The position numbers were made by a program, and so were the translations under genes. Shown here one piece after another: positions 3,392-21,569 of a stretch of 42,550 nt of DNA. The first letter of the stretch is position 1; each line of letters begins with the position of its first letter. A model generated the notes under the pieces. That model was not told the DNA's origin, made no database searches, and saw nothing but the letters and a program-made list of their open reading frames with translations. This stretch comes from a virus: positions 1-42,550 of the IMG/VR virus record IMGVR_UViG_3300037847_003647; one strand, given 5' to 3'.

Positions 3392-3392
3392 G

Positions 3393-6300
3393 ATGACTCT
3401 GACAATAGACGCTGGATATGCTATAAAATTCAATGGTATAAGCGACAGCATTCTAGTTCCTGTAAATAATAAATTTATACACGGCGTACAAAATGAAGAA
3501 AGGAAGGGTTTACCTAAAGCACTAAATTCATTTACACTAGAGACTTGGTTTATACCTGATTGTGGCGGTGTTATATTTGAGCAGGAAAATGTAATGCGGC
3601 TGACTGTAGGAAGCCCAAGTAGTCCTGCTCCTGCTACATTTGAAATAAGACTAAGAAATCAAGCCAGTGGAAGAGATGCAGTTTATACTTTATCTACAGC
3701 GAAGCCTGTGACAAAGGCTAATGGTAAAATCGCATACTGGGACGGTATACAGTTTCCTTTAGAAAACGATATGCATACATCTTACTTAGCAACCGATGCA
3801 GAAAGAGAAGACTCTTCTGCTTTCAACGAAGGGCATAGAGAGTTACTAAATGTCACGGTCATATTTGATAGAAAAACAATCAACTTATTTGTAAATGGCG
3901 ATTTGGCAGTCTCTCAGGAATTAGAAGAAGTTCATGAGTTAGTCACTCAACAAAACCACATCTACCTTGGTGGCAGAGGCGGTGATTTCAGAGGCACACT
4001 TGAGGCTGTACATTGGTCAAGAGGTGCGCTTGTATCAGGCTATCAGCAATATGCTCCTGTAAAAAGCGACAACACAATAGGACTTTGGAGGTTTGAAGAG
4101 CCAGTCAGTCCAATTAGTTTGATTACTACGACTCCTTCTATAACTGCTTCGACTTCTGCTAATTCTACTATAACTATAGGTGCGACTGCTGCTCAGTCTT
4201 TAGTCGATGAATTGAGCGGTCAAAGTGGACTGACCTCTATAGACTTCACAGCCAGCCCTTACAGTGGGGGAAGTTATAGCGTAACAGTTCATGCTGTTTC
4301 TTCTACTTCCACGGTTTCGATTCCTAAAGTACCTTACAACATACTTGTGAATCCACTTGGCTACAGTCAAACTACAGGTAAGCCCACTGCTAAATCTCCT
4401 GAAAGAATGAGACTGATGGCGGTCAATGCTAGTGCAGGAACTATCACTGTCGAATCAATACACTTAGATTTCAGTGCTAACGCTACAAACGGAAGGAGGG
4501 GAGCACTCGCAAGTCACGATGCTGGTAGATTTGTAATTATCACAGGTGACTGCATAGTAGACACAGGTAACGGTAACGACTTCCAACCATACGGTACAGG
4601 TACGCAGTTTTCTCAAAGACAAGGGCAAGTCATCATAGACGAAAGTGACTTTGGTAACAACGGTATTATGTTTTCTCAAAGTATGGCTATTGACAGTCAC
4701 GAGTACAACAAGTTTTCAGCCAGTTCAAGTAATGTAGGTAAATCATTTGTGGCAGGTCATTCAGGTAGACACATACTCAATCATGTAACGAGTCATCCTT
4801 TTATGGGTACACTACCACCTACTAGTTCTCATGGAGTAGAGAAAAAACTAGACATAGGTAGCGATGTAATAGTAGCAGGCTTCCCATCTCAGTTTTCTGA
4901 CATAAGGTCTACTGTTCCAATAAACAGCGTAGTGTCTAGTTACGATGCTCACGGTCCTATAAAAATAGATTATTTACTAAACAGTTCTTTAGTCAGTGAC
5001 ATAGTTGAAAATGGAATGTCTGACATAGATGACACTCAAAGAAACATACTGGCTATAGGTGGAAAGGGCTTTGTTCCTGAACCCTTTATGTTAAAGTCTA
5101 CTTCTTCTAACGATGAACAAGGAGATGTTAAGCATATCATCCCTTCTTCTGACAGTAGAATAGCAGTGTTGTATGTTCCTAATTTATCAACATATAACTA
5201 TGCACCATTTGTACAGTTACATTACAACGCAGTTGACTTAGACGGTAACCAGTTCAATGTAGGTGCAAGTTCAAGACTCACTGGTAACATAAGTGGTGGT
5301 AACACAGTTATTACTTTACAGAGTGTCAAGTCATTCGGATACGATGGTCAGACCATAGAGGCATCTTCGGTAAGCATAGGTGGTACACCTGCTTCCACAT
5401 CTTCGACTATTAGAGGAACGATTAGTTATTCTGCAAAAACAATAACATTCAGTACAGCAGTTGATTCAGGATTCGTAAGCCTAGCAAATACTGGTGCAAT
5501 TGTCAAAGTTTCTAATTTGAATCCAAAGATAATTGTAACTGATACTTTGCCAAAGGTTAGTACAATTGTAACTGGTAGCACTTCTATACTCGATGTAATT
5601 AGAAGTAGCCTTGAAGGTCAAGATTTAAGATTGTTTTCTGCTGGAGGAGTTATAGAATTTGACAAGCCTGAAATGTTTGGATTTTTAGATGGTGATTTAG
5701 AAGGTGAAACATCGGAAGGAACTGTTGCAGAAAAGGTCTTGAATTATGACCTCTGTCCTGAAAATTACTTACCTTTGAATTCTGCTGATTCACCTCAGAC
5801 AACACCTCAAGCAATTCCAGTTGCAACCAGCGAATTGAGCACTAGAGGTTCTGTATTTCACAAAGTATTAGTAAGGACTAACAAAACTAATCTAGGAACA
5901 TTTGAAGAGGTTGCTAATGTAAGAACTCAAAAGTCTACCAACGGTGCAAGGCCAAGGATTGGTTTGTTTGTAAACAATGCATCAGGATATTCGTCTTCTA
6001 CTTCGGGAGCGATGACAGTAGACGGGGTAAACGCTACTACTGTCGTAACTACAGGTGACAGTCTCTACAAGTCAAATGGTAAAAAGTTAGGAACAGTTAC
6101 AGCAGTAACTTCTACGAGCGTCACTATCGGGGCTGGTACTACAGACGCCTTGGTAGATGACGATGAATTATTTACTCAGCCACAGATTGTAGGAAAGGGT
6201 ACTGCCAACCAAAGTTCTTGTGTTCATGATTACTTTGACATAATAGAGCACCAGTCTGTAGGTAATAGAGTAAAATTGATACTACAGCCTAGTGACAAAA

Positions 6301-9300
6301 GTAGATTTAACCTGTTTAGTAAATTAGGCGACTCTACTGAATCTGCTAATTACATTAGTATAGAAAGTCTAACATCTCGTGGAAGAGTATTATCTTTTGC
6401 AGATGATTCAGAGGGTAACACTGTCATGCGAGCGCATGGTATAATTAGTGACCTTGCTTCTTCAAGTGTCTATGTCAAAGGCTCTGCTTCTCCTGATTCT
6501 CACATAGTCAAAGAAATAATGCCGGGCGCACCTGTAGTAACTATGACTCTTGGAGGTGCAGGTCAAGGTGCTGTAAATACCAAAGAAAGTTATGACCCCA
6601 GCCCTTTGTCAAGACTAGAATGGAACACTCGTAGAGACTGTCAAACTCGTGTAACCTCTACCAGCAGCACGACTGTAGTAGTCGCTCCTCTAAATAACAA
6701 ATCGACAGACCTACAAAGTTGGGGCACATACTGTTTCCCAAAGGAAGGTAGAATCTACCTTGCAATAGCAGGTAACCAAGGCGAACAAACTAGATTTGCA
6801 AGTGCAGAATATGCTAGTAAAACAGGTGATACCTTTACATTTGCTTCGGGTAGTCAAATAGGGACTGGTAAGTTTATTGTGGCAGATGGCAGTGAAGCAG
6901 ATACATTTGCTGATTGGATAACAGCGACAGGTATAGTTGCCGGTAGTGTTTTACATGTCGATGATAAGTTTGGAGAGGACAGTATGTGTAATGACGGGAC
7001 TACTATCAATGATAGATTATTCCAAACTCTTGACACGGTTCAGCATGATTATCAACTAGGTACGCAGTATGCAAGTACTAGGGCTTTAGTAGAAATCCCT
7101 CTGTTTGAGCAGTTCTTCTTTGATAACCCGTCAGAAGGAGTATTCGTTGGTCCTGATAACAGCATGAAGTTACACATAGATGCTACTCACACTGCTCATT
7201 CTTGGAATCCTAATCCTGTGGGTCGTAGGCCAAATTCCATATCTCCGCAAGACCCTGAACTATTTGGCTCGTTTTCTTATGCTATACAGAATGATACTCA
7301 CCGAAGCGGTACAAAGGTGACGAGGCCATATGATTCTAGCAATAGCCGTGTGTATGTAGAAGATGCTAATATTTTCCCAATACCAAGTGCTCCGCCTGTA
7401 TCTGTCGCAGGGCTAGGTGGTAGTGCAAGATACCGTAGAGCGTTTTTAGGAAATGGAGAATGGGTAACTTACAGTGCAAGAGATACCACTAACCACTTTT
7501 TGACCGTAGTTGATTCGGGCGATGACCATGCTTTCAGTGAGCACTTTTTGAGAGACATTAGTGTGGGCGCTCATATTTTCCCTGCACCCGGCTACCAAGA
7601 TATGAGTTACACTAGCATGGCTGACAATCCAAGTTTGATTAGTGCTGGTTATGAAAACAGACGCTCTTTTTACTATGACCGTTCTAATGTAATGACTCAA
7701 GGTGGTAATGTAGATTACGGACTAAAGCAATATGTTAGTGCCATTGAATTAAAGGCTGGTCCTACAGTTAATCCTCACTTACCAAAGATAGTGAGTAAGA
7801 GACCAAGAGGAATTATAGCCTCTGTAACAGGTAGCCCTGCCACCTCTATTACACTAGAAGACGCTAGTCTTTTTCCAATAAGTTCTACTGACAGTAGTTA
7901 TAAATTTAGAGTTGCTTGGAAAAATGCAAGCGGCGCTGTTAACCGTGGATTCTATGACAACAGAGTAGGTAATGTACTTACTATAGTCAGTCCTGATTCA
8001 GGATTTACTCCTTCTGTCGGTGATGAAATATATGTTGAAGACTTGTACGCTACCGCATCGGGTACTTATCCAAAGGTGAAAGAGACATTCTTGAACAGAG
8101 CATGGTCGCACCCTTATTGTGTAGGCGGTTTGAGACAAGGTGACACTATATGGATGAACATGCATTATACTAACCCTCACGCTATCGAAGGTTTGTTTTG
8201 TAAAAGCAGAGGTACACTCAATGAAGCAGAAGTTTGGTCAGGATTTAATGGTGGAGAAGGAGCATTCAATGCTAGTCCAAGAGATAGTATACCTATGGAA
8301 AATTTCCTAATAGGTAATAGTTGTATAGAAACGGCTCAGAATCTAGTACAGCATATAAACAAGACAATAGAAATGAACTATGATGCTTTTGGTCTATCAG
8401 AAACTCCTCCACCAGTTGCTTACCTTGACCCCTATCAATGCACACAGAACTATGCAAGGATATTACTCTACGATGTAGAGCATGACAGGGAGTTTATTGC
8501 ATTTCAAGACTTACATATGCAAGTACAATCAAGCCCTGCTGCCTCTTCGATAGGTAAAGAGGATACTAGTACAACTGGTCTAATTCAAAATACAGTTAGT
8601 GGCTCAGGCTCTTTGTTAGATGTAGCGGCAGGTTTCCCAACTCAAAATAAAAGACTAAACACTACGGAAGATTCTGACTTTATAGAATCGGCATACGCTC
8701 ATAAATCTACATGGAACTCAAATGTAACTGGTGGAGATGTAGGTCATTACATTGGAGGTGTAGACGATACTGCTACAAATGGCTATATCGACCGCACTGA
8801 TAATGCAGTCACGGTTGCATCAGATGCTAACACTAAGCATCAAGAAATTGATTCTTCCTCAAGAGAGCAATCTACATTCTTTGATACACCTGATGGTACA
8901 AGAGTAATACCTGCCTTCTTAGCGATGAAGGGTATAAGGAGTTCTACTCTGTCATTAGATGATACTAGAATGAATAACTTAGACCATTGGACAAAAATGG
9001 ACTTTGTAAGAAGATTAACTGTCGATATGGGAGAAGTATCTTTGAAAGACGGAGTTACTAACATAGAGTCGGCAGCAAGAGAAGTTGTGAGATTAATTAA
9101 TCAAGCAGGTGCTAAGAATGGGAAAACACAGGCAAGAAAACCTGCCGATTCTTTCTTAGGCAATACTGACAACTTTGACCCTGCTCATGTCCATCAAAAA
9201 GCGGACTTTGCAACTACTGCTTCTACACACGACCCTGCTCCTTTTTGGGACACTAAGAAATCATTTTCAAGTCACGATAGAGGCTCTCACATGGGATATG

Positions 9301-12300
9301 TTAGAGCGCATCTTGGAAGAGTAGTACTAGATTCTGATGGTAATCAAGGATTTTCTATAATAATACATTCTACTATTCCGGGTGCTGGCGGAAGAAATTT
9401 CTGCACATGGTTAGATAACAGTAAGGCTCAGACACCATACAAACCACAGTATTTGATAGGTCACGGTGGTAGATTTAGAAATTACTGGTGTCAGCCGGAT
9501 GAAATTACTGGAGAAAACATGCACCCTGCACCTATGCCAATTAATAGATTTGGTAGGCCGTTTGCACCAATAACTACTCTCAAAGAATATTTGCCACCTG
9601 AATCACCTGACGATGAGTTACTTAACAACTTAAACTTAGGCGCAGATAGAGTAGACAGCCAAGGTGCATTGGCGACTAGTAATGTGGAATTAGTGAGCGG
9701 AAGAAATGCTAATACTGTGTTAAACGAATCATTTGAAACAAAAAGCCCTGCATCAGTTCTAGTAGACGGTCTTAGAATAGGTACGAAAGCGAAGGCGAGA
9801 ATCAACTTTGGCGGCATGACACAAGCGGGTATACCCGGCTGGGCACCTGATTTGAGTAAATGGGGATTCGATAACGATGGTACAAATAATGTATCAAGAT
9901 ACGGTAATGCCAGCAATGCCGCCACTGCGATGACAGCGACTACTGTCCAAGCAAGTAGTGACGGCTACATTCCAGCAGATGATATGAAGAGCGAGAACAT
10001 TGGTCAAAGACCTATGTATGGTTTGAAATTTACAGACCATAGAGGAGATAACCATACTATCCGTCTACTTTACAGGCAATTCGGCCAAACCTTTGCCAGC
10101 GATAATACATTTTTACCTTCTACACTAGATGAAGAAATCATAATTCAATTTGACGATAGAGATGTAGGGCAGGGTGGATTTACTATCGGTCGCCACATGG
10201 TCGGTAGTGGAGAAGTCTGTGGTGAAAAGACAGGGGGCGACCCTATTAATTTCAAGGGTAATCTTTGGAATAACTACCCTTCTCCGATTGTAGGGGTTAA
10301 GGTTGCTACAAATTTGTCAGGTGATGAAATGACAGTTACGCTTGATAGACCCTACGCAGGTAACGGTAGTGATTCTGTAATGAACGCTCACCCTGACATA
10401 CTAGGTTATCTTGGTTTCCCTGAAAGCGGTATGTTCCAACTTTCTATGCATGGCACTACATCTAACGACCATCAGGGTTTAACCTTCCACTATACTAGTA
10501 GAAGTCATAGCGATGCAACTGCTGCATCTGCACAGCATAAGTTCTTCGGAGTATCAGGAGGAGGAGCAAATCACGCTAATGGAGACTGGTATCTAAGCCC
10601 AAGAATCAACTTTACCTGCTTACTTACTGATGAAGTAATTGCAGCGGCAGTAGAGCATGCTATCAATGCCTCAACTAACGATGAAGACATTACATTTGAC
10701 TGCACTAATATGTTTGCACCTGATGGTAAAACGCTGGGAGAATGGGGTGTTAGCCCCACTGCAATTACGATTAGAACAAGAGCAGATGGTAAGACTCCTA
10801 TGAGTAAACTGTTTGAGGCAAAGAGAACCAAGGATTGGGGCTTACTTGACGGTGCATCCACTGACGCAGTTGTTTCGACCAAGCACACTGGTGGTTTATC
10901 TAACGCAGAAAAAGACGCAGGTACTAGGTTGGATATAGGTTACATACCTCATACTGTGTTACAAATCAGTACTAAATTCAGGGGTAGTAATGCAAATACA
11001 GCGACTCCTGTACTGGTAGATAGTCAGAATAACATAGTCGATGTTACTACTTGGCAAAGAAACTTGAGGGGCGATAACTTTACTGATGTAGCAGGTGACC
11101 ATATCATACCAAGAGTGGATTCACCTTGTTTAGAAGTCGATGCAGTTTCTAGCGGAGTAATACAATCAGCGTCTAACGAGTCTTGGGCTTTGTTAGGTAA
11201 GTTAGCATCACATGACAGTAATAGTTGGGGAGAACCTTACATCGTTTGGTATAGTACCAAAGAGTATGCAGAGGTTCGTAGTAAACCCGGCTCTAACGCA
11301 ATAACGCATGTGGATGAGATTACAGAGTCGGCTAACTTTTCACCTGCTCAACATGACTTATTGTTCAAAGGCACAAGTCGTATAGTGGACTTCCGTGAAA
11401 CAGATGGCGTAAGACGAGCAGGTAGTAAACAAGGTAGTCCTTTCTTATACTTCCGTGGTGGTAGAGACAGCCCTGACCACTGGGTGCCACTTTACTTCGG
11501 TGGTGGCTTTAGTGGTGCAGTAATAGATATTAACGACGGTACTCAGAATGACTACTCTGATTTCTACCAACACCCCTACTCTAGCGGACCTACCGGTAGT
11601 GCTGGCTTCCAAAATGTGGGAGAAATCGCTGGCTCTTATGCACTACTCGATGCTAACGCTATGCTTGCTATGTTCCCCGGTACTCCTTACCTTGACCAGC
11701 ACCGTGGTCAAAATAACCCACCTTACTTTAACCAAGATGCTATTTTACCATTCGATATGGCAAAGGGCGCTAACTCAAAAGTAACTGGCGTCACTTATAC
11801 AGATGGCTCAAACTCAGTTCATGCTAACATACCGAGTCCGATAGTATTGAGATTTGCTCATCCGAATGCAAGATATAGCCATAGTAGCAGTGACAGTGAC
11901 CAAACAGCGTACATAATATTTGGTCCGGGTCAAGCCTTCCCTCACAACACCGCTGCTCACGAGCCTCAAGGTGCTAATATAGTAACGACAGGAAACGGAT
12001 ATAGTGCAGTCCCTGTTCACATAGGTGGTGACAGGGCTAAAGATTCATTCCTACCAAATCAACTTGCCAATGGTGATGCTACTGAACATAGTGGGTTTAA
12101 CAGACTAACTAGTGCTAATGCCCACTTACCTATGACTACATTTTTCCAGCAGAACAAAAGGTCAGGTTTCAATTATGTAATGAACTGGGAGCCTCTCAAA
12201 GGTTTACCATCTACGAAATCAAGTTCTACTAAAAGTTACAGCCAAGCGTATAACCATGCTTTCTATTATGAAGGCTCAGTTGCCACAACTTCTAATTTAC

Positions 12301-15300
12301 CAAAGCATTACCATCCTTTTAATTTCATATTCCAAGACATAAGTGGTGCATCTATAGGCGGCAGCGCTCATCCAAAGAGCAGACAAGCATCTGTAGTTTG
12401 GCACATGGATGGAGGCTACCATCCCGGCGGTCATTTCCTTGATGACCATGTAAGTAAAAATCCAAAACACACGGTGTCCACGGTTAGATTAGTTACAGGC
12501 AGCGGCTCACAGCATAATGCTAGTGTTTTCAGACCCTGTGGTCTTTTAGCACAGGCTTACAAAACTAAGTACGGAGGTGACTTTAGTGGTCAAGATGTAA
12601 ATGAAAGTGTAGTAATCGTAGACGCTACTAGGTGTCAAAATGCAGAAGAGTTAGGAACTGTAATTAGCGGTGCAATAAACACATTCCCCGGTAAGAATCC
12701 ACTCAAAGCGATAGGCGGTACATTCATGCCTTCTATGCAGAATGCGCACAAACAAGATAGATACGGCTGGGTAGAAGTACCTGTAGTAAGTTACACAGCA
12801 GAAGCAGGAGGGACTGCTGCTAGTCTTGTAGTCACTAGCACTGCTACTACTTTACCTGATTACGGTTGGTTAAGAGTTAGTGATGGGACAAATTCAGGAT
12901 ATGCACCTTATATCTCATACAGCGTATCTGCGCCTAATACGACCTTTACTTTAGGTAAAAACTCAGTCACGACTAATACAAATGTGGTGAATCCTGCTAG
13001 TAACTCCGCTCTAGCACCTGACAATACTTACAAAGCCTATATTTGGACAAAGGCAGGTACTCATAGACACAATAACGCAGCCGGTGCTGGTTCTCGTGAC
13101 CACATATGCCAAGTGCACTTTAGTGGATACATAGATGCAGTTGACAGAACAAGACCAATAGGTGCAGTCGGTTGGGCAGGTGAGGCTTACTCTTATCTAA
13201 GTTCATATCATGCACCAAATGATATAGGTGGAACAATACACCCTGCTGGATTAGGAGCATGGCATCCTTTCTTAGGATTCAATCCATATGGGGCTGCTGA
13301 AACTTGTGTTTCTAGCCCTAGCCCAGTCGGCTCGGCAGAAGTACCGGCGGGTACATTTTACCAAGACTACTGTGTAACAGGCTTGTCCAGTAGACACTTA
13401 ATTGCTATAACGCATGAGAGCGAACTACCTTTGATTGCAAAAGCAGATAGAGACGGTATTACCTGTAACGGCGATTGGTTAATGGTAAAGCAAACGGGTA
13501 CTTTGTCACATGCTGGAACAATCGCTTGGGATACTGGGAAAGTGCACAATAAGAGCAGATACATCGGAACTGCTACTGCTGGACCTCATGTAGAGGCACA
13601 GATGCACAGCGGTTACACTAGACCCTCTGCATCAGGTGATTACCCCGCATCGGCTTCCGCTCCTACAGATGGTGAACTACATCGAACAATACAAAGCGGA
13701 GATATGGTGAGAGCCAACGCCTGTAATTATCCAACAGGTGATTTGTTTTGGGATGAATCGGTCGTTAAAAATTCAGCATTCCACGAAAGTGCAGGTACAT
13801 ACGGAGTGGAATGTGTGGGAGTAAGTAATCACGACCACTACTTGGACATAACTGCCTCCCCTCACACTGGCTTATTTGGATACTACGGTGATAGACACCC
13901 TGCTCGTAACTTCTTACCTGAACATGTTGTATGGAAGCGTATGGATGGTGGAAGCCTTACAATGCCTGCCGTCAATGCTCGTGGACTTGGCATGATACCT
14001 TGGGTGAAGCGAAAAGACGGCTCGGATTACAAAACAGTCGGTGAAAAGATTCTTGGAAATGTAAGATTCTCGTTTGAAACTACCAATGCTGCCATGTTCC
14101 CTGTTATCCAAGCACAAGAGTTAGGTCATCCTCAACTAGCAAGTGAGCATCCTTTAGAGATAAGAAACGCATTGTTAATTCCAAACGAACATATACAGTT
14201 TGAAAGCGTTCAAGTAATAGATGACACAGGTCAAGAGCATCGTTTGGAAGGAGGCTCTCCTCTAGGTACAGTAATAATGGATTTCAGACATATCAGTGAT
14301 AGAGAGGTCGAAGGACTAGCCCCTGCTTTGGCAGGAGCAGGTGTTAATCCTAATTTGAAAATTAGGTTACCTAACCCTGACGAAATTCCCGGTAACATAA
14401 TAGTAAGGTCAGGGTTTGACAGAATACAAGCGTATCAAAATGAAACATTTGGTTCAGGTGGATTACAGCACCCTGCACAGAACATTACTAACATTAGGCA
14501 GATTTTCAATAACGAATACTCAGGTCCAAGGCTTTGGCCTACATGGGAAAATAATGGCTGGGAACATCTGAGCCAAGATGCATCTGATGTGTCTGTGACA
14601 AAAAGCGATAGTCGTCTAAAGTTCCCTGCTTCTACCAGTGAAGGTTGGTCAGATTATACCGACAACGCTCCTTTGAAGTCTGCATATGAGCCGCATGACA
14701 GAAGTCTATTCTTCCATGTAACACGCATGGGTATATCTATGACTCATCGATACGATGTAGACGAGTTGTCATTTAGTGCTTATGATGAGGCAAATAACGA
14801 AATCGATGTTACTACCACACCGGAGGGCGCTACATGGTTAGATGCAAGTGAACAAAGTGGAGGTCGTTATTTCCTAAGAGTATACGACCCTACTACAGAC
14901 AAAGGAGTACTAGCATCTTATACAGGAAAGGATACAAATAAGTTTACAGGTGTAGTAGTATCGCCTGACTTTAAGTCTTTTATTAGTGGTAAAAGTGGGC
15001 TGAAAGTTGTACCGAGTTACTATATGCCTGCGGGTAGCACTCGTATGTTTGCAGCGAGAAGATTGCGTGACCATAGTGAATACAGTGGTGCAAGTCCTGA
15101 CATGAAGAAAATAGATTGGTTTAACATGTATAGTAATCTACCAACATCTACAGGTAATATGGCAGACCCGTCAGTACCTCATGAAAGTATAACTGCTCCT
15201 AAGATGACACCTATGCCAATCCCAAGGATGGGTCATCACTATGTTACCCCTACAATGGCATTAATGCCCGGTCACTATGCACACCCTGCTTATCAAAGAC

Positions 15301-18300
15301 TATACGATTTGAATAGGTCTTGTAAGAGTTCAAGCCATGACCCTATCGAAGATGCCTTAGTAGGTACGCTTGAAACTGCGAGAACTAGTGGTACTAATAC
15401 CTTGGACAACCAAGGATTTGGTCGTGACCCACTTATATGGTTCTCCACTCCATCAGCCGCATTTAGTCCGAGCGATATACACGGAGGAGCATTTACACTA
15501 CTAACTGAAACCAAACTCAAGTACGAAGGTTACGGGATTGCAGCATCCGTGGGCACTAATGCAGGTAATGTAAACGCATCAGGCGGTCACACACTTGTGT
15601 TAGAGGCAGCGTCGTCTTATACATTTAACAACCATTTCCCTGACCCGCTTGAAGTAGGCGCTTATCAGATTATCATTCAGCCGAATGTGTTTAAGCAGCA
15701 ACTGAAAGGATTCCATGCTAACGGTCCTGCTACAGATGTACCTGACGGCTCGGTTGTAGAACTTACAGGGCAACAAGTCAATACTGTCATTGCAATAGAA
15801 AAGAATGTATCGACAAGAGGAGGATATGCTCTGATTCTAGCAGAGGCCACTATGGCAGATGTAAGAGGCTGTGAAGTAATACTGAATGAAATAATATTAG
15901 ATATTGAACCCGATGCAGGTAGTCACTTTACTAACCTACCTCCCTTGGCACTTTACAATCCACTAGGTGTTCAAGAAAGTTACAGCCCTTCCTTTACAAG
16001 AAGAAGTCTACCTTACAGACCAAATATGTTTGAAAGTTCAACACCCGGTAGAACAGTGAATATACCTTGGTGGGGTATTTTACACAAAGATGGTGCTACG
16101 GCAACAGGCGCTAATAAATTTAAACATCTTGAATGGCACAAGCCTGATAATTACTACGAACTATGTAGAGCAAACTACGGCTGCGTAGGTGCACAATTGA
16201 CGCTTGCGGGTTATCCTACTACATTCCTTGATATATATGAACCACATAAGAGACTAAGAAGCCTCAATCCAAACTGTGTAGTTATTAGCACCAACGGTTC
16301 TTCTACTATCACTGTAGATAACAATGACTTGTTCCCAGTAGTACCTTACTACGGTGAAGTATTAGAGTTGATAAAGAACGGAGTAAGGTACACAGCAACA
16401 TACAGTAATAGAACTGGTACTCTCGCTCATGCTACTTTAGGAGCAAGTACTACCTTTTCAGGAGTTACAGCAGATGCAGCATTTTGGTCTGCTTTAGCAG
16501 CCAATGATATACTCAGACTTAGCCGACCTTATGATAATGCAAACTCTGATACGCTTTATACAGACTTGGAAACAAGTGCATTGACAAGAAACTTAAGTCA
16601 GATACAGGCTGGTAGCAGAGATACTAATTCACTGAATCCAGCAGATGCATTCTTATGCATGTGGCATCCTAACTTAGGTAGACCTTTCACTTGGTACAGT
16701 GATGACAGCAGTAGAGCCTTCTATACTAAGGCAGGGACTGCTGACACTCCTGTAGACCAAAAGGCATACAATCATGTTCCTGAGCACTTTGAAACTATAC
16801 ACTATCAGGATTTCAATTATGTAGCAAGTAAAGGTCCATTCGCACTTGCTATGAAATGGGTAGTGCCTCCTCATGACCATGATAATGATGCAGGAACTGC
16901 ACTGAGCCATGACGGTACGCTACAAACTGCTGCTCAAATTGATGCAAAAGTAGACGGCTCAGGTACACTGAATCACCAAGGTGGCACAGTCAGTTCAAAC
17001 AAATACAACTTCTTCGGCTTTTGGCCGGGCGGCTCTCACGGTGGAGGTGGAGTGAGTAGACTAGAATCCTATGGTCATTCTCTGATTGGATGGGGTAGTG
17101 ATACATTTGGCATGGATTGTGAAACATACCAAGACTCTACTGGTGTCGCTACACTGTCTTTACCAAATGACAGAAACCGCTGCTTTGGATACCGTATGGG
17201 AGTGCGCCAGTTATACAATCGCCCTCGTTGGTCTCCTTATGTGCGTGGTTGGTTAGAAGTAGCAAATAGCAACGCCATGCTTGGATATTACCACGGTCCA
17301 CTAATCCAACACGACTCTAAGACAAATGGCTGGGATTATGTAGGCTCGGATAGTGGTCAAAGTGACAAGACATTCGACGCAATGTATGTCGGTATACTTG
17401 AAAGACTTACTCAAGTTTCAAGTCTGATTGGACAAGACCAAATCGGTAGACAAGTAAGATACAGTGACGGTAGAAGGATGACCGCATCTTTTGGTTGCCC
17501 TGTTAGAACTCTAAGAAATGCATCCACTACCACACGGCTTTTCCCTAACGACGAAGCCGGTAAAGGTATAGAAGAGTTAGCAAATGCTCATAGATTTTAC
17601 ATGATTGACTGGTGGGGTAATACTCGTGGTGAAGATGTTAGGCGTTTCCCTGTAAGAGGATTTGGATTGCGACCATCGTGGGACCCCGAAGATGCTTACA
17701 AAGATACTAATGTTACTCACAGACCTGCTGCTCATAACATATTTGGAGGAGATGGAACTGACAGACATAGTGGTAGTGACAACTCTACCAATAACGATGG
17801 TACTAACATGGGAACAGCAGACTGGTTCAATCCAGCCAGTGCACTGAGAGTAGGTGACCGTGGAGATGGTAGAGGTGTTAGATGGCCTACTGTCTTTAAC
17901 GAAAGCCTACTGATGGCAGTTAGTGAAAACCACGATGCTACAGGATTGGTATTATCTCATAGCACTGCCGAGCCAATATTCGGACAAGGGCTGATTAGAC
18001 CAAGTAATGACGCTGCTCAGGCTGGAGAAATCGAAAGAGGTATCAGCGACAGAGTTGATTTGAACTCTGATGATGGGTTACTCAAGCCAAGCGCACAGGT
18101 AGGCGAGGCTACTGAAACTGTTAACGCAGATGACCGTGGTGCAGAACCAGTGTCAAGAAACGATGTGAGGTTAGGATTAGATGTAGATACTCTCGCTGAA
18201 TTAAATGACGGTACATCTCGTGAGTATGTAGTTATGTCAACAGAGGCGGCTAGCCTACACACTGACAGAGAAGTAGGTCAGAGAACCAGTGTTAGAGGAG

Positions 18301-19055
18301 CATATAATGTAGGTAGTAGGACTCTAAAGGACTTAGACATGACTGCTTTGAACTGGAGTGCGCAACCAGTAACTGGTGTGGTCAAGCACTCTAATGCTCA
18401 TGCAATGTGGCCTCTTGGTGGAACATATGTCATGGAGTGGAGCAAACACGCAGGTAACCTAGATGTCAAGGGATGGGGCAAGACTGGTGTATCTTCGTCA
18501 TCTAATCCATACCAAGATGCTAACCACGACCCAATCCTTGAAAATATCAACTATACAGATAGCACTATACAGTTCTTGTACAGACCTGCTTATGGATTAG
18601 ATTACAAGCACAGTCAGATGTTCAGACCTTATGTCGCTTTGAAGGGAAGCAGCCCTCAAGAGAATGCTAACTTTTACAGAGCAACTGCTGGCGGTAAGTA
18701 CGGTATGTTTACCAGCGATGCACCATCTGCTCGCACAGGAACTCCAAGTAGTCCACCTTACGCTCCTGTTTACAATATAGTGCCCGGTACAAGTCTAACT
18801 GTACCTGATAGCCAAGGACCTAAGATTCAAGGAGTAGATGTTACAGATTATGATAAGAGTGACATACGCTCACCTGTAGCGAGAGTAGTCATGTCTGAGA
18901 ATACACTTGAGCATTTCAGAGCAGATGCAAGTAGAAAGTCAGTAGATGACGATGAAGGTGATTACGAAGTGCAACCGAGATTCAGTCAAACCCTACACCC
19001 GAAGGGTAGTAAAGAGGATGCATCTTATAATACGGGTGACCATAGTGGGGAGTGA
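3393..19055 (+). CDS. Giant 5220-residue virion protein, probable tail adhesin/receptor-binding protein
   Basis: One uninterrupted 15.66-kb reading frame, 37% of the window. I place the start at ATG 3393 because AGGTG at 3382-3386 is spaced six bases from it; an upstream in-frame GTG at 3384 overlaps that signal. Residues ~10-230 look like a LamG/concanavalin-A-like domain (FTLETWF, INLFVNGDLAVSQ, IYLGGRGGDFRGTLEAVHW). Residues 857-927 are a copy of the module shared with other tail proteins. A second type of beta repeat recurs at least three times, recognised by DANIFP, DASLFP and NNDLFP (near bases 7370, 7860 and 16325), with a weaker fourth at ~12800. The rest is aromatic-, His-, Asn- and Gly-rich with no membrane segment or catalytic motif that I recognise. 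Position between tail genes and the hub supports a tail-tip or fibre role in host attachment. The stop TGA (19053-19055) lies inside the leader of the next gene. Confidence 0.7.
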   Translation: MTLTIDAGYAIKFNGISDSILVPVNNKFIHGVQNEERKGLPKALNSFTLETWFIPDCGGVIFEQENVMRLTVGSPSSPAPATFEIRLRNQASGRDAVYTLSTAKPVTKANGKIAYWDGIQFPLENDMHTSYLATDAEREDSSAFNEGHRELLNVTVIFDRKTINLFVNGDLAVSQELEEVHELVTQQNHIYLGGRGGDFRGTLEAVHWSRGALVSGYQQYAPVKSDNTIGLWRFEEPVSPISLITTTPSITASTSANSTITIGATAAQSLVDELSGQSGLTSIDFTASPYSGGSYSVTVHAVSSTSTVSIPKVPYNILVNPLGYSQTTGKPTAKSPERMRLMAVNASAGTITVESIHLDFSANATNGRRGALASHDAGRFVIITGDCIVDTGNGNDFQPYGTGTQFSQRQGQVIIDESDFGNNGIMFSQSMAIDSHEYNKFSASSSNVGKSFVAGHSGRHILNHVTSHPFMGTLPPTSSHGVEKKLDIGSDVIVAGFPSQFSDIRSTVPINSVVSSYDAHGPIKIDYLLNSSLVSDIVENGMSDIDDTQRNILAIGGKGFVPEPFMLKSTSSNDEQGDVKHIIPSSDSRIAVLYVPNLSTYNYAPFVQLHYNAVDLDGNQFNVGASSRLTGNISGGNTVITLQSVKSFGYDGQTIEASSVSIGGTPASTSSTIRGTISYSAKTITFSTAVDSGFVSLANTGAIVKVSNLNPKIIVTDTLPKVSTIVTGSTSILDVIRSSLEGQDLRLFSAGGVIEFDKPEMFGFLDGDLEGETSEGTVAEKVLNYDLCPENYLPLNSADSPQTTPQAIPVATSELSTRGSVFHKVLVRTNKTNLGTFEEVANVRTQKSTNGARPRIGLFVNNASGYSSSTSGAMTVDGVNATTVVTTGDSLYKSNGKKLGTVTAVTSTSVTIGAGTTDALVDDDELFTQPQIVGKGTANQSSCVHDYFDIIEHQSVGNRVKLILQPSDKSRFNLFSKLGDSTESANYISIESLTSRGRVLSFADDSEGNTVMRAHGIISDLASSSVYVKGSASPDSHIVKEIMPGAPVVTMTLGGAGQGAVNTKESYDPSPLSRLEWNTRRDCQTRVTSTSSTTVVVAPLNNKSTDLQSWGTYCFPKEGRIYLAIAGNQGEQTRFASAEYASKTGDTFTFASGSQIGTGKFIVADGSEADTFADWITATGIVAGSVLHVDDKFGEDSMCNDGTTINDRLFQTLDTVQHDYQLGTQYASTRALVEIPLFEQFFFDNPSEGVFVGPDNSMKLHIDATHTAHSWNPNPVGRRPNSISPQDPELFGSFSYAIQNDTHRSGTKVTRPYDSSNSRVYVEDANIFPIPSAPPVSVAGLGGSARYRRAFLGNGEWVTYSARDTTNHFLTVVDSGDDHAFSEHFLRDISVGAHIFPAPGYQDMSYTSMADNPSLISAGYENRRSFYYDRSNVMTQGGNVDYGLKQYVSAIELKAGPTVNPHLPKIVSKRPRGIIASVTGSPATSITLEDASLFPISSTDSSYKFRVAWKNASGAVNRGFYDNRVGNVLTIVSPDSGFTPSVGDEIYVEDLYATASGTYPKVKETFLNRAWSHPYCVGGLRQGDTIWMNMHYTNPHAIEGLFCKSRGTLNEAEVWSGFNGGEGAFNASPRDSIPMENFLIGNSCIETAQNLVQHINKTIEMNYDAFGLSETPPPVAYLDPYQCTQNYARILLYDVEHDREFIAFQDLHMQVQSSPAASSIGKEDTSTTGLIQNTVSGSGSLLDVAAGFPTQNKRLNTTEDSDFIESAYAHKSTWNSNVTGGDVGHYIGGVDDTATNGYIDRTDNAVTVASDANTKHQEIDSSSREQSTFFDTPDGTRVIPAFLAMKGIRSSTLSLDDTRMNNLDHWTKMDFVRRLTVDMGEVSLKDGVTNIESAAREVVRLINQAGAKNGKTQARKPADSFLGNTDNFDPAHVHQKADFATTASTHDPAPFWDTKKSFSSHDRGSHMGYVRAHLGRVVLDSDGNQGFSIIIHSTIPGAGGRNFCTWLDNSKAQTPYKPQYLIGHGGRFRNYWCQPDEITGENMHPAPMPINRFGRPFAPITTLKEYLPPESPDDELLNNLNLGADRVDSQGALATSNVELVSGRNANTVLNESFETKSPASVLVDGLRIGTKAKARINFGGMTQAGIPGWAPDLSKWGFDNDGTNNVSRYGNASNAATAMTATTVQASSDGYIPADDMKSENIGQRPMYGLKFTDHRGDNHTIRLLYRQFGQTFASDNTFLPSTLDEEIIIQFDDRDVGQGGFTIGRHMVGSGEVCGEKTGGDPINFKGNLWNNYPSPIVGVKVATNLSGDEMTVTLDRPYAGNGSDSVMNAHPDILGYLGFPESGMFQLSMHGTTSNDHQGLTFHYTSRSHSDATAASAQHKFFGVSGGGANHANGDWYLSPRINFTCLLTDEVIAAAVEHAINASTNDEDITFDCTNMFAPDGKTLGEWGVSPTAITIRTRADGKTPMSKLFEAKRTKDWGLLDGASTDAVVSTKHTGGLSNAEKDAGTRLDIGYIPHTVLQISTKFRGSNANTATPVLVDSQNNIVDVTTWQRNLRGDNFTDVAGDHIIPRVDSPCLEVDAVSSGVIQSASNESWALLGKLASHDSNSWGEPYIVWYSTKEYAEVRSKPGSNAITHVDEITESANFSPAQHDLLFKGTSRIVDFRETDGVRRAGSKQGSPFLYFRGGRDSPDHWVPLYFGGGFSGAVIDINDGTQNDYSDFYQHPYSSGPTGSAGFQNVGEIAGSYALLDANAMLAMFPGTPYLDQHRGQNNPPYFNQDAILPFDMAKGANSKVTGVTYTDGSNSVHANIPSPIVLRFAHPNARYSHSSSDSDQTAYIIFGPGQAFPHNTAAHEPQGANIVTTGNGYSAVPVHIGGDRAKDSFLPNQLANGDATEHSGFNRLTSANAHLPMTTFFQQNKRSGFNYVMNWEPLKGLPSTKSSSTKSYSQAYNHAFYYEGSVATTSNLPKHYHPFNFIFQDISGASIGGSAHPKSRQASVVWHMDGGYHPGGHFLDDHVSKNPKHTVSTVRLVTGSGSQHNASVFRPCGLLAQAYKTKYGGDFSGQDVNESVVIVDATRCQNAEELGTVISGAINTFPGKNPLKAIGGTFMPSMQNAHKQDRYGWVEVPVVSYTAEAGGTAASLVVTSTATTLPDYGWLRVSDGTNSGYAPYISYSVSAPNTTFTLGKNSVTTNTNVVNPASNSALAPDNTYKAYIWTKAGTHRHNNAAGAGSRDHICQVHFSGYIDAVDRTRPIGAVGWAGEAYSYLSSYHAPNDIGGTIHPAGLGAWHPFLGFNPYGAAETCVSSPSPVGSAEVPAGTFYQDYCVTGLSSRHLIAITHESELPLIAKADRDGITCNGDWLMVKQTGTLSHAGTIAWDTGKVHNKSRYIGTATAGPHVEAQMHSGYTRPSASGDYPASASAPTDGELHRTIQSGDMVRANACNYPTGDLFWDESVVKNSAFHESAGTYGVECVGVSNHDHYLDITASPHTGLFGYYGDRHPARNFLPEHVVWKRMDGGSLTMPAVNARGLGMIPWVKRKDGSDYKTVGEKILGNVRFSFETTNAAMFPVIQAQELGHPQLASEHPLEIRNALLIPNEHIQFESVQVIDDTGQEHRLEGGSPLGTVIMDFRHISDREVEGLAPALAGAGVNPNLKIRLPNPDEIPGNIIVRSGFDRIQAYQNETFGSGGLQHPAQNITNIRQIFNNEYSGPRLWPTWENNGWEHLSQDASDVSVTKSDSRLKFPASTSEGWSDYTDNAPLKSAYEPHDRSLFFHVTRMGISMTHRYDVDELSFSAYDEANNEIDVTTTPEGATWLDASEQSGGRYFLRVYDPTTDKGVLASYTGKDTNKFTGVVVSPDFKSFISGKSGLKVVPSYYMPAGSTRMFAARRLRDHSEYSGASPDMKKIDWFNMYSNLPTSTGNMADPSVPHESITAPKMTPMPIPRMGHHYVTPTMALMPGHYAHPAYQRLYDLNRSCKSSSHDPIEDALVGTLETARTSGTNTLDNQGFGRDPLIWFSTPSAAFSPSDIHGGAFTLLTETKLKYEGYGIAASVGTNAGNVNASGGHTLVLEAASSYTFNNHFPDPLEVGAYQIIIQPNVFKQQLKGFHANGPATDVPDGSVVELTGQQVNTVIAIEKNVSTRGGYALILAEATMADVRGCEVILNEIILDIEPDAGSHFTNLPPLALYNPLGVQESYSPSFTRRSLPYRPNMFESSTPGRTVNIPWWGILHKDGATATGANKFKHLEWHKPDNYYELCRANYGCVGAQLTLAGYPTTFLDIYEPHKRLRSLNPNCVVISTNGSSTITVDNNDLFPVVPYYGEVLELIKNGVRYTATYSNRTGTLAHATLGASTTFSGVTADAAFWSALAANDILRLSRPYDNANSDTLYTDLETSALTRNLSQIQAGSRDTNSLNPADAFLCMWHPNLGRPFTWYSDDSSRAFYTKAGTADTPVDQKAYNHVPEHFETIHYQDFNYVASKGPFALAMKWVVPPHDHDNDAGTALSHDGTLQTAAQIDAKVDGSGTLNHQGGTVSSNKYNFFGFWPGGSHGGGGVSRLESYGHSLIGWGSDTFGMDCETYQDSTGVATLSLPNDRNRCFGYRMGVRQLYNRPRWSPYVRGWLEVANSNAMLGYYHGPLIQHDSKTNGWDYVGSDSGQSDKTFDAMYVGILERLTQVSSLIGQDQIGRQVRYSDGRRMTASFGCPVRTLRNASTTTRLFPNDEAGKGIEELANAHRFYMIDWWGNTRGEDVRRFPVRGFGLRPSWDPEDAYKDTNVTHRPAAHNIFGGDGTDRHSGSDNSTNNDGTNMGTADWFNPASALRVGDRGDGRGVRWPTVFNESLLMAVSENHDATGLVLSHSTAEPIFGQGLIRPSNDAAQAGEIERGISDRVDLNSDDGLLKPSAQVGEATETVNADDRGAEPVSRNDVRLGLDVDTLAELNDGTSREYVVMSTEAASLHTDREVGQRTSVRGAYNVGSRTLKDLDMTALNWSAQPVTGVVKHSNAHAMWPLGGTYVMEWSKHAGNLDVKGWGKTGVSSSSNPYQDANHDPILENINYTDSTIQFLYRPAYGLDYKHSQMFRPYVALKGSSPQENANFYRATAGGKYGMFTSDAPSARTGTPSSPPYAPVYNIVPGTSLTVPDSQGPKIQGVDVTDYDKSDIRSPVARVVMSENTLEHFRADASRKSVDDDEGDYEVQPRFSQTLHPKGSKEDASYNTGDHSGE
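5961..6173 (+). repeat. Shared beta module, copy 3 (giant protein)
   Basis: Encodes residues ~857-927 of the giant protein. It is the closest relative of copy 1: GLFVNNASGYS, AMTVDGVNATTV, GDSLYKSNG, LGTVTAVTSTSVTI, DDDELF. Confidence 0.75.
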
Positions 19056-19085
19056 GGCGTATGACACCGATGGATGAGGCTTGGA
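19047..19085 (+). repeat. 39-bp translation-start repeat, copy 1
   Basis: Covers the GGGGAG ribosome-binding region, the spacer, ATG and first eight codons of the HD-hydrolase gene. It matches 19478-19516 at 38 of 39 positions (T/C difference just before ATG). Confidence 0.9.
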
Positions 19086-19486
19086 GGATTCTCAAGATGC
19101 CCCAAGAGGCTCGTGAGTTTGCTACACAAGCCCACGGCGACCAAATGTACGGCGACCAACCTTACATGACACATGTAGAAGATGTGGCGAGTGGATTCAG
19201 TGACCCGCATCTACAGCGTATCGCTTACTTGCACGATGTAGTAGAGGACACTGGGATTGGTTTGAACGAAATTCATGAACGGTTTGGTCCTGAAGTGGGT
19301 TCAGCGATTGACGCTTTGACTCGCCGTGAAGGAGAACAATACTTTGATTTTATCCAACGAGTCAAAGAACATCCCGAAGCAAGACAAGTAAAACTTGCTG
19401 ATTTACATGCTAATCTAAAAAGACAACCGCATGAGAGTCTCGCTCGGAGATACAACAAAGCCATCGGTATGCTGAGGGGGGAGTGA
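19061..19486 (+). CDS. HD-domain hydrolase of RSH/MESH1 (SpoT-like) type with N-terminal MTPMDEAW tag
   Basis: Start chosen at ATG 19061, eight bases after GGGGAG (19047-19052). A GTG at 19052 overlapping the previous stop would add only three residues and lacks a site. The 141-residue product shows the metal-binding pattern of RelA/SpoT-homologue hydrolases: H25, H38, the HDVVEDT motif (H58-D59, E62-D63) and KLADLHANL with D114. No synthetase domain is present, and the length fits single-domain small alarmone hydrolases/MESH1. Such enzymes remove the 3'-pyrophosphate of (p)ppGpp, and MESH1 can also dephosphorylate NADPH; the substrate here is unknown. The first ~12 residues (MTPMDEAWRILK) lie outside the HD fold and recur in the next gene. 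An odd cargo for a tail operon; may act on host nucleotide signals. Confidence 0.8.
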   Translation: MTPMDEAWRILKMPQEAREFATQAHGDQMYGDQPYMTHVEDVASGFSDPHLQRIAYLHDVVEDTGIGLNEIHERFGPEVGSAIDALTRREGEQYFDFIQRVKEHPEARQVKLADLHANLKRQPHESLARRYNKAIGMLRGE

Positions 19487-19516
19487 GGCGCATGACACCG
19501 ATGGATGAGGCTTGGA
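19478..19516 (+). repeat. 39-bp translation-start repeat, copy 2
   Basis: Second copy of the leader plus first eight codons, in front of the ADP-ribosyltransferase-like gene. It overlaps the 3' end and stop of the HD gene. Confidence 0.9.
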
Positions 19517-19911
19517 TATTACTAAAGCGTCAGACTACGCTTGGTGAGTTTCATCCTGATTTACCAAGTCCTCATGGACCTGTGATGTATTATCATGGTA
19601 CCGGTCAAAGATATATACCTACTATCCAATCTACAGGGCTAAAGCCTTCGTTTGGTAATTACGGTAACGCAGTTTATGCTACAAGTGACATAGACTTAGC
19701 AAGGTATTACGCAAATAAACACAAATTTGGAATAGGAACGCAAACTGTAAATCGACCAAGGTCGCCACCTTCAATAGTGGGAATCAGAGCGCCAAAAGAC
19801 AACTCTGTTCCTGTGGATATAGTTGATTCAACAAATATAGCGATGTTCCCTCAAACAATACCGCCTCAGTATTTAGTGACAGAGGGAATTAGCCCCTACA
19901 AAGAGGAGTAA
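19492..19911 (+). CDS. Possible ADP-ribosyltransferase-fold protein with N-terminal MTPMDEAW tag
   Basis: Starts at ATG 19492 after the duplicated GGGGAG leader. The 139-residue protein opens with MTPMDEAWILLK, nearly identical to the preceding gene, then diverges. Residues 33-74 (YYHGTGQRYIPTIQSTGL, then VYATSDIDLARYYA) follow the pattern of small ADP-ribosyltransferase/RNA 2'-phosphotransferase-like folds: His in YHGT, an I..xGL turn, then a strand with Y-x-T and an A.xYA helix. A candidate third-site Glu lies near the end (VTEGI, E131). If the fold is right it would use NAD+ to modify a protein or nucleic acid. Recognition rests on motif pattern only. It ends three bases before the next start. 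Confidence 0.5.
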   Translation: MTPMDEAWILLKRQTTLGEFHPDLPSPHGPVMYYHGTGQRYIPTIQSTGLKPSFGNYGNAVYATSDIDLARYYANKHKFGIGTQTVNRPRSPPSIVGIRAPKDNSVPVDIVDSTNIAMFPQTIPPQYLVTEGISPYKEE

Positions 19912-19913
19912 AC

Positions 19914-21569
19914 ATGGCAGTAGGTAAGAACACAGTTACTGGTCGCTTTGATGCCGACCAAGATTCTGTTATGAAGGTCGTGCGTAAGCCACGCTTCGTA
20001 GATAACGCTGTCAGACATGGTGAGTACACACGAGTCAAAGCAGGTTTTGCTGTTAACAAACCTACTGCTACAGATTTCGTTCCTACCGCTGAAAGAAAGT
20101 ACAAGTTAATCGAGGAAGAGGATACTGTCCGTTTGCTTCACAACCCTACAGATAGCATTCGATACGAAGGTGCTGTTTACTTCGACAAAGACAAAGTAAG
20201 CACTTCCAGTACACTACCTGCACTGTTAGTAGGTGCTGAAAACAATGACCAAGCGTTAGTGGTATCTCAGATAAAAGACGCTAACAAAGGTACGAGGTAT
20301 TTGGTTGAGAATCTAAAAGGACAAGACTTAGCCAACATCGGCTTCACCAATAAAACCATCCGTTTTGCTCAGAAAGTGGGCGTGGGCTTGCGAACTTCTG
20401 ACTTGGCAGTTAGAGTAGCAAAAGCAAACACTTCATCAATCAACGGAGTGAGAGCGAGGCTACCAAGTTCTACTTTCCTTGCTCAAGACTTCTATGGTGT
20501 TGAGGCATTCAGCGCACTTAGATACCTTGCAAAGCACGATGGCTATAGCCCTCGTGGTGATAGGTATGGGAATGTCTGCTATTTCCCTCAGAATAGAATA
20601 GAAAGAGAATATCTGTTGACTGAGAACAGAGTAGTAGGAGGCACTATTAATGACAATAACGAAACTACTCCTAACAGAGTAGTCGTCAGAGGAAAGGCAA
20701 GAGCCAACAATCATCAAAATACAGTGCAAGTGGATGACTTTGGTAGACAAGAAAATGGTATAAACGAAGTACCGGGTGGCATACACGCTCCTACAGCAGT
20801 CACCAAAGCCAGTGCTAAACTGATAGGTCAGCGTATGCTAAAGATGGCAAAGAACGCCACAGGCTCTCGTAAGTTAGTAGATGTTTTATCTGCTACACAC
20901 ATGCATCCGGGTGATATGGTATCTTACCAATCGAGAACTGATAACGAAAGATACATGTTACTAGGAACTAGATTTGACTTAGATACAAGAATGAGCGAAC
21001 TACATGTTAATTCTGTAGATGTAACATTAGAAGATGTATTGCAGCGTTTCCAAGAAATAGATGTGAGTGGTAGTATACAAGCCAATGATGAAAGAAATAG
21101 ACAATTTTCTACAGAAGAATTTTCTACATCTTTTGGATTCAAAGTCAAAGTAACTTGGCAAATATCTGAGAGAGTAGACATGAATCGTGGTGTAGGTTAC
21201 ACCCTAGGTATGAACAAGCGCAATTCTATACACGGCAATATCTTCTTCCAAAGCACAGGGGTACTGATTAACAACGGAGGCGGGTACGCAATAGGTACAA
21301 CTTCATTTACCACAGACGGAACTGCTGCAAACTCTGCTTTTGCTACTGATAATCAGGCAATTTATACTGCAAACGGTAACAAACTAGGCCATATTCATTT
21401 AGCCGGAGTAGGTGCAACTACAGTGGTGATTAAGTCAGCGAGTGTGCACCCTATTGATAATAATGAAGAAATATTCATAATATCTACACAAACTAATCCT
21501 GAAACAAGAAACTCTAGTTTGAAGATAGGAACTGTACACAGTAATTACTTGAACTCTAGGAGGGGATGA
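19914..21569 (+). CDS. Probable baseplate hub / tail tip protein (late-control-D-like) with C-terminal shared module
   Basis: Starts at ATG 19914 with GAGGAG just upstream. The 551-residue protein begins with a basic, beta-strand-rich N-terminal half. The region VVVRGKARANNHQN through ATHMHPGDMVSYQS (~residues 260-345) resembles gpD/gp27-type hub proteins, in which a strand 'v.G' is followed by a helical stretch with repeated Ala/Lys and then a beta domain around a 'PGD.v' turn. Residues 449-521 are a copy of the module found in the other tail proteins, here near the C-terminus. Hub proteins sit at the tail tip between tube and spike; that role is inferred from these resemblances and from the flanking tail genes. 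Confidence 0.55.
   Translation: MAVGKNTVTGRFDADQDSVMKVVRKPRFVDNAVRHGEYTRVKAGFAVNKPTATDFVPTAERKYKLIEEEDTVRLLHNPTDSIRYEGAVYFDKDKVSTSSTLPALLVGAENNDQALVVSQIKDANKGTRYLVENLKGQDLANIGFTNKTIRFAQKVGVGLRTSDLAVRVAKANTSSINGVRARLPSSTFLAQDFYGVEAFSALRYLAKHDGYSPRGDRYGNVCYFPQNRIEREYLLTENRVVGGTINDNNETTPNRVVVRGKARANNHQNTVQVDDFGRQENGINEVPGGIHAPTAVTKASAKLIGQRMLKMAKNATGSRKLVDVLSATHMHPGDMVSYQSRTDNERYMLLGTRFDLDTRMSELHVNSVDVTLEDVLQRFQEIDVSGSIQANDERNRQFSTEEFSTSFGFKVKVTWQISERVDMNRGVGYTLGMNKRNSIHGNIFFQSTGVLINNGGGYAIGTTSFTTDGTAANSAFATDNQAIYTANGNKLGHIHLAGVGATTVVIKSASVHPIDNNEEIFIISTQTNPETRNSSLKIGTVHSNYLNSRRG
21258..21476 (+). repeat. Shared beta module, copy 4 (hub-like protein)
   Basis: Encodes residues 449-521: GVLINNGGGYAIGTTSF, then NQAIYTANGNKLGHI, VGATTVVIK and NNEEIF. 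Clearly related to copies 1 and 3, with an altered middle. Confidence 0.7.

Follow-up and report, generated by a model that had tools for sequence, protein, structure and literature searches.

The internal proteins of bacteriophage T4 are sent into the prohead by ten N-terminal residues, which are then removed by a protease, and targeting and processing reside in different residues of this peptide (PMC9026906). A peptide that may serve a comparable role is encoded in the IMG/VR virus record IMGVR_UViG_3300037847_003647, positions 1 to 42,550 of which are referred to here as the window. Two neighbouring window genes, coding for an HD hydrolase and a predicted ADP-ribosyltransferase (ART), both open with the 12-residue tag MTPMDEAWxxLK and then diverge completely. 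The consensus M-x-[PA]-[FMIL]-[DE]-x-A-W-x-[LVI]-L-K is found at the N-terminus of approximately 270 proteins in related viral contigs, and the tag carriers are marine viruses related to those of Poseidoniales archaea. We consider it fairly probable that the tag is a head-targeting propeptide and that the tagged enzymes are packaged in the head and enter the next host with the DNA.

The tagged gene pair

The features of the pair are as follows:

19047..19085, + strand: start cassette copy 1, consisting of the Gly-Glu-stop of the giant gene, the Shine-Dalgarno-like GGGGAGTGA, the ATG and the first tag codons; 38/39 bases identical to copy 2
19061..19096, + strand: tag copy 1, MTPMDEAWRILK; seen in the translation, by the position-specific scoring matrix (PSSM) of the tag and in relatives
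19061..19486, + strand: tagged HD hydrolase of the small alarmone ((p)ppGpp/(p)ppApp) hydrolase type; Pfam HD_4, 2.8e-06, above the cut-off; PDB 7smg, a (p)ppApp hydrolase, 1.2e-11
19478..19516, + strand: start cassette copy 2, 38/39 bases identical to copy 1
19492..19527, + strand: tag copy 2, MTPMDEAWILLK; seen in the translation
19492..19911, + strand: tagged ART-fold protein; AlphaFold2 model with a predicted local distance difference test (pLDDT) score of 77, and structure matches

An earlier note on this DNA had proposed that both genes share a duplicated start cassette ending at codon 8 and a peptide of about 12 residues. The identity of 38 of 39 bases between 19047-19085 and 19478-19516 holds, and the peptide is confirmed by the translations, in which the open reading frame (ORF) 19061-19486 begins with MTPMDEAWRILK and the ORF 19492-19911 with MTPMDEAWILLK; the likeness of the two starts, however, reaches codon 12 before it ends, and a repeat search of the window extends the repeat to 53 nt at 87% identity (19044-19096 versus 19475-19527). 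The cassette opens with GGGGAGTGA within the upstream stop, where the Gly-Glu-stop of the preceding giant gene is combined with a Shine-Dalgarno-like site. A different codon is used at one of the nine identical tag residues. Because the DNA is nearly identical, the window pair is best read as a recent DNA copy.

The matches of the first protein to HD domains, which include RelA/SpoT hydrolase profiles, start at residue 15-17 and thus outside the tag. Residues H38, H58-D59, E62-D63 and N118 are invariant in five relatives, and the two phage relatives of the enzyme that were examined are without the tag. The product of 19061-19486 is predicted to be a small alarmone hydrolase with a RelA/SpoT homolog (RSH)-type HD domain that possesses the HD and ED motifs. 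The product of 19492-19911 is predicted to adopt an ART fold: its model matches Tpt1/KptA from residue 29-30 on (VIA-align Z of 11.8 and root-mean-square deviation of 2.2 over 89 residues to Tpt1, 8tg4; Foldseek 5.8e-05), and the tag is modelled as a helix spanning residues 3-14. Residues His35, Gly36 and Arg99 are invariant in 18 relatives, and no clear catalytic acidic residue was found. The two enzymes are therefore unrelated, as had been proposed, and the tag precedes each fold rather than being an integral part of it.

Relatives of the ART protein are also present in KVP40-type T4-like phages (E about 3e-4), where they align from residue 14 on. They begin with MKNLKSFMEE, which resembles MKTFKEF of T4 IPI, a weak but suggestive parallel. 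In KVP40-type Vibrio phages, the ART-like protein with this T4-like N-terminus (L219:2599-3708) is annotated as hypothetical and is a possible packaged effector.

Distribution of the tag and selection on the peptide

The exact pattern MxPMDEAW occurs in 26 stretches of viral contigs, on HD, ART, peptidase-like and very basic proteins. A relaxed DNA pattern was found in at least 118 viral stretches and in three stretches of 257 Gb of bacterial and archaeal genomes; the three cellular matches lie in short or unconvincing reading frames, look like chance hits and were rejected as true tags. All 30 records match the tag pattern, and the pattern read backwards gave no match. A PSSM built from 116 tags found 91 matches in nine large records, at least one of which (in PolB) is a false positive, versus none in the reversed proteins; matches in PolB (PFDEAxALAK) were discarded. 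A chance origin is ruled out by these reversed-protein, backwards-pattern and cellular-genome controls, and the tag is virus-specific. Scanned vir519 regions contained nothing convincing.

Once the tag is removed, the approximately 270 proteins, counted over all loci, fall into about 117 families; the largest cluster is joined via multi-module proteins and splits into 31. A restriction of the tag to the window pair is thereby ruled out, and the proposal of a portable signal on unrelated enzymes is strongly supported. Pfam matches of 97 cargo representatives include NUDIX, D12 adenine methyltransferase, DUF6321, HD_4 and GNAT. Zincin-like HExxH proteins, ParB-like GxHR motifs and a kinase-like family were recognized by motif reading by eye only. 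In an alignment of its relatives (A3), the kinase-like family displays the motifs GxGxxxxV, VVK, DxKxxNW and DPxF; a search for further relatives found five loci, all in or resembling this virus group. A PDB profile search with this family gave no match, and its AlphaFold model is uninterpretable (pLDDT 37). The cargo types overlap with phage effectors that are packaged or predicted to be packaged (PMC5512222).

Within a genome, the same tag residue is encoded by a different codon in 43-58% of the comparisons, which is near the level of random usage. Since codons at identical residues differ in this way, the tag is selected at the amino-acid level, as a peptide. These codon differences, together with tags inside proteins, rule out a DNA-level cassette alone. 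Recent gene-start recombination, which the earlier note had considered as a second explanation, therefore fits the nearly identical window pair but not the tags of other genes.

Some copies of the tag lie within proteins. An 829-amino-acid protein of record G015 contains five tags of the type TGEPMDLAxRLLK, and some of its modules are also found as stand-alone tagged proteins. A conserved head-module protein carries one to three internal copies of TGEPM[DE]xAWSSL[MI]K; the representative at L151:14910-16499, with homologs in G001, G005, G007, G014 and G029, is charged, probably disordered and encoded upstream of the portal gene. Furthermore, the protein encoded after the major capsid protein (MCP) gene at L152:15180-15623, which is also found in G014, has the tag-like KSFDDAWSILK near its C-terminus (residue 124 of 147). 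A second common N-terminus, MIDTDKYEGHT, is unrelated to the AWxLLK tag and was observed on small genes of the same viruses, several of them in a row on the minus strand at L169:1-1718 and others in L131, L132, L155, L161 and L119.

Gene location and cargo exchange

In nine records, the 76 tagged genes are without exception on the same strand as the head genes, compared with 305 of the 550 untagged genes of at least 100 amino acids, although genes within one cluster are not independent. Most tagged genes are clustered upstream of the genes for the portal, the S78 protease and the SU10-type MCP, or lie in a slot after the giant gene. The same S78 protease is present in 25 of the 30 tagged records; the other five have 56-70 kb and are possibly incomplete. 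An untagged HMG-CoA lyase-like gene (motifs EVGPRDGLQ and HPKLVPNM), possibly a metabolic gene, stands amid tagged genes at L151:3266-4120 and L169:12048-12875.

In the window, the tagged pair occupies the slot between two conserved genes:

3384..19055, + strand: giant gene of 5223 amino acids, left border of the cargo slot; from the ORF and the slot comparison
19914..21569, + strand: conserved gene, right border of the cargo slot; weak Phage-tail_3 match, below the cut-off, and slot comparison

The giant gene is one uninterrupted ORF with homologs in relatives. Among the relatives, the slot between it and the next tail-like gene holds none, one, two or three tagged genes, which carry different cargo; it is empty in G013 (8-base gap) and G015 (6-base gap). 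The upstream DNA of the window pair recurs in the slots of relatives in front of different cargo, and the DNA upstream of tags differs between clusters. Given this variable gene number and content, cargo is exchanged at the slot, and the probable route is recombination in the cassette. By sequence reading, this 42,550-base virus contig encodes tail-like, PolB-, RFC- and thermosome-like proteins. This gene set is consistent with a magrovirus-like virus, and the window likely belongs to the magroviruses (viruses of Poseidoniales); reference magroviruses were absent among the MCP matches in the phage collection.

Cleavage-like features after the tag

The capsid protein of phage HK97 is cut after a lysine. 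Among 147 representatives of the tagged proteins, the residue that follows LLK is Ala in 44 and Ala, Ser, Gly or Asn in 91, compared with 21-48 for these four residues at the 15 positions that come after. Five of the 147 representatives have a hydrophobic residue, Pro or Cys directly after LLK, versus 34-62 at later positions. In MCP sequences that cover the N-terminus, [LI]LK occurs about 34 residues from the start and is followed by Ala or Ser. The protease-scaffold protein possesses invariant lysines, many of which are followed by a small residue. In most members its scaffold part contains the tag-like ExAY(E/A)V[YF]K-A, often the best match of the protein to the tag PSSM, and FRILK-E lies at the end of the protease domain.

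Proposed mechanism and alternative explanations

A virion-targeting tag, as suggested in the earlier note, is the best explanation of strand, position, cargo and cleavage-like sequence; the location in the virion and the cleavage are putative. In this mechanism, the tagged proteins would be produced late, together with the head proteins, and the tag, as a short helix, would dock the cargo to the protease-scaffold core or to another head component while the prohead is assembled. The next step would probably be a cut after the invariant Lys12 by the S78 prohead protease, and the enzyme would stay inside the capsid. Approximately 6-15 proteins per virus would enter the host along with the DNA and alter the host at an early stage. 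Recombination at the tag would supply new cargo, as it does in the window slot. The first part of the tag, P-[FMI]-[DE]-x-A-W, might serve for docking and the second, x-[LVI]-L-K, for processing; this proposed split follows the T4 peptide, which divides the two functions among different residues. In its broadest form, the proposal is that archaeal tailed viruses possess a generic head-loading system based on a single interchangeable code of 12 residues, which probably mimics the scaffold and is cut by the prohead protease. Each virus would use this code to package about 6-15 effectors in a varying mixture (alarmone hydrolase, ART, kinase-like, methyltransferase, peptidase, NUDIX and nucleic-acid-binding proteins) and to pass them to the host together with its DNA; we regard this as slightly better than an even bet.

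Several observations weigh against head targeting. The likeness of scaffold and tag is weak, with PSSM scores of about -10 to 5 versus more than 14 for tags, and late proteins show no general enrichment of a short cleavage-like motif. In some cargos Lys12 is followed by Arg or Met, as in the window pair with Met and Arg, and helix capping could account for part of the Asn/Gly/Ser bias. Furthermore, the window has no recognised head genes, and no tag was found in the scanned half-genomes of the haloarchaeal viruses HVTV-1 and HCTV-1 despite their homologous MCP and protease.

There is a small chance that the tag directs its carriers not into the capsid but to a different part of the virion, for example the tail, the giant protein or the injection machinery; the cargo would still be delivered in that case. 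Such a target is favoured by the window slot, which has the giant gene on one side and a tail-like gene on the other, and late-strand expression is compatible with any virion part. Against it, most tagged genes are grouped ahead of the genes for portal, protease and MCP, and the bias after Lys12 and the [LI]LK site of the MCP indicate the prohead protease. It is likewise unlikely that the tag acts as a docking motif inside the infected cell, where it would recruit late viral proteins to a host or viral hub such as the membrane, the polymerase or the viral chaperonin without any packaging. A short helix common to unrelated proteins, internal copies that are not obviously cleaved and the thermosome-like chaperonin encoded in the window would suit such a hub; however, it does not predict the restriction to the head strand, the bias after Lys12 or the overlap with injected effector domains. 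A role as a processing signal only, which marks module boundaries of polyproteins for the viral protease, is very unlikely: the five internal tags of the 829-amino-acid protein stand before modules, some of them separate elsewhere, and the residue bias also fits, but most tags are located at the extreme N-terminus of single-module proteins, where separation would be purposeless, and conservation of the first half of the tag extends past a short cleavage site. A recombining gene-start or translation cassette (Shine-Dalgarno site and first codons) without peptide function would agree with the near-identity of the window pair, 14 upstream bases included, and with the recurring upstream DNA in the slots of relatives, but is highly improbable given near-random codon differences within genomes, tags away from start sites and upstream DNA that varies between clusters; cassette recombination is nevertheless likely the way in which cargo is swapped in the slot.

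If the tag is a head-targeting propeptide, a simple sequence search would show which proteins are delivered by viruses that are among the most abundant in the surface ocean and infect hosts that are difficult to grow, and a function would be assigned to more than 100 unannotated protein families at once. It would also predict the viral proteins that first meet the host and provide a short peptide with which proteins could be directed into the capsids of archaeal viruses.

Comparison with known systems

No description of the tag was found in the literature searched, of which coverage was partial, so that an earlier mention cannot be excluded. Like the viruses described here, magroviruses are marine tailed viruses with an S78 prohead protease, portal, MCP and PolB and are related to haloviruses; the words motif, N-terminal and ribosyltransferase do not occur in the paper describing them (PMC10160649). 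N-terminal propeptides are also removed by a prohead protease during assembly from phage P1 DarA and from head proteins of SPN3US (PMC12810830, PMC10052503); however, these propeptides comprise 20 to more than 200 residues, and no single 12-residue tag is common to many unrelated enzymes. The polyvalent proteins of phages and conjugative elements (PMC5512222) share with the tagged proteins the effector types ART, GNAT, NUDIX, peptidases and, by motif, a ParB-like domain, as well as predicted packaging and injection and some multi-module proteins. In polyvalent proteins, many effector domains are joined in one long polypeptide, whereas tagged proteins are mostly short and consist of a single module, with the 829-amino-acid protein as an exception.

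The capsid-targeting sequence (CTS) of T4 IPI, IPII and IPIII (PMC9026906) is likewise a short N-terminal peptide common to otherwise different proteins, it ends at a prohead-protease site, which is putative for the tag, and an ART, Alt, is among the proteins that T4 packages. The sequences themselves are unrelated, as a direct reading of the T4 IPI-III N-termini revealed (MKTYQEFIAEA versus MxPFDxAWxLLK), and gp21 cuts after Glu, whereas a cut after Lys by an S78-type protease is expected for the tag. In addition, the tag is found on more than 100 cargo families, with several tagged proteins per genome and internal copies, and packaging of its carriers is deduced. The tag was not assigned to the T4 CTS because there is no sequence resemblance; it is predicted to work like the T4 CTS without being homologous to it, and T4-style head targeting would then have evolved independently with an unrelated peptide.

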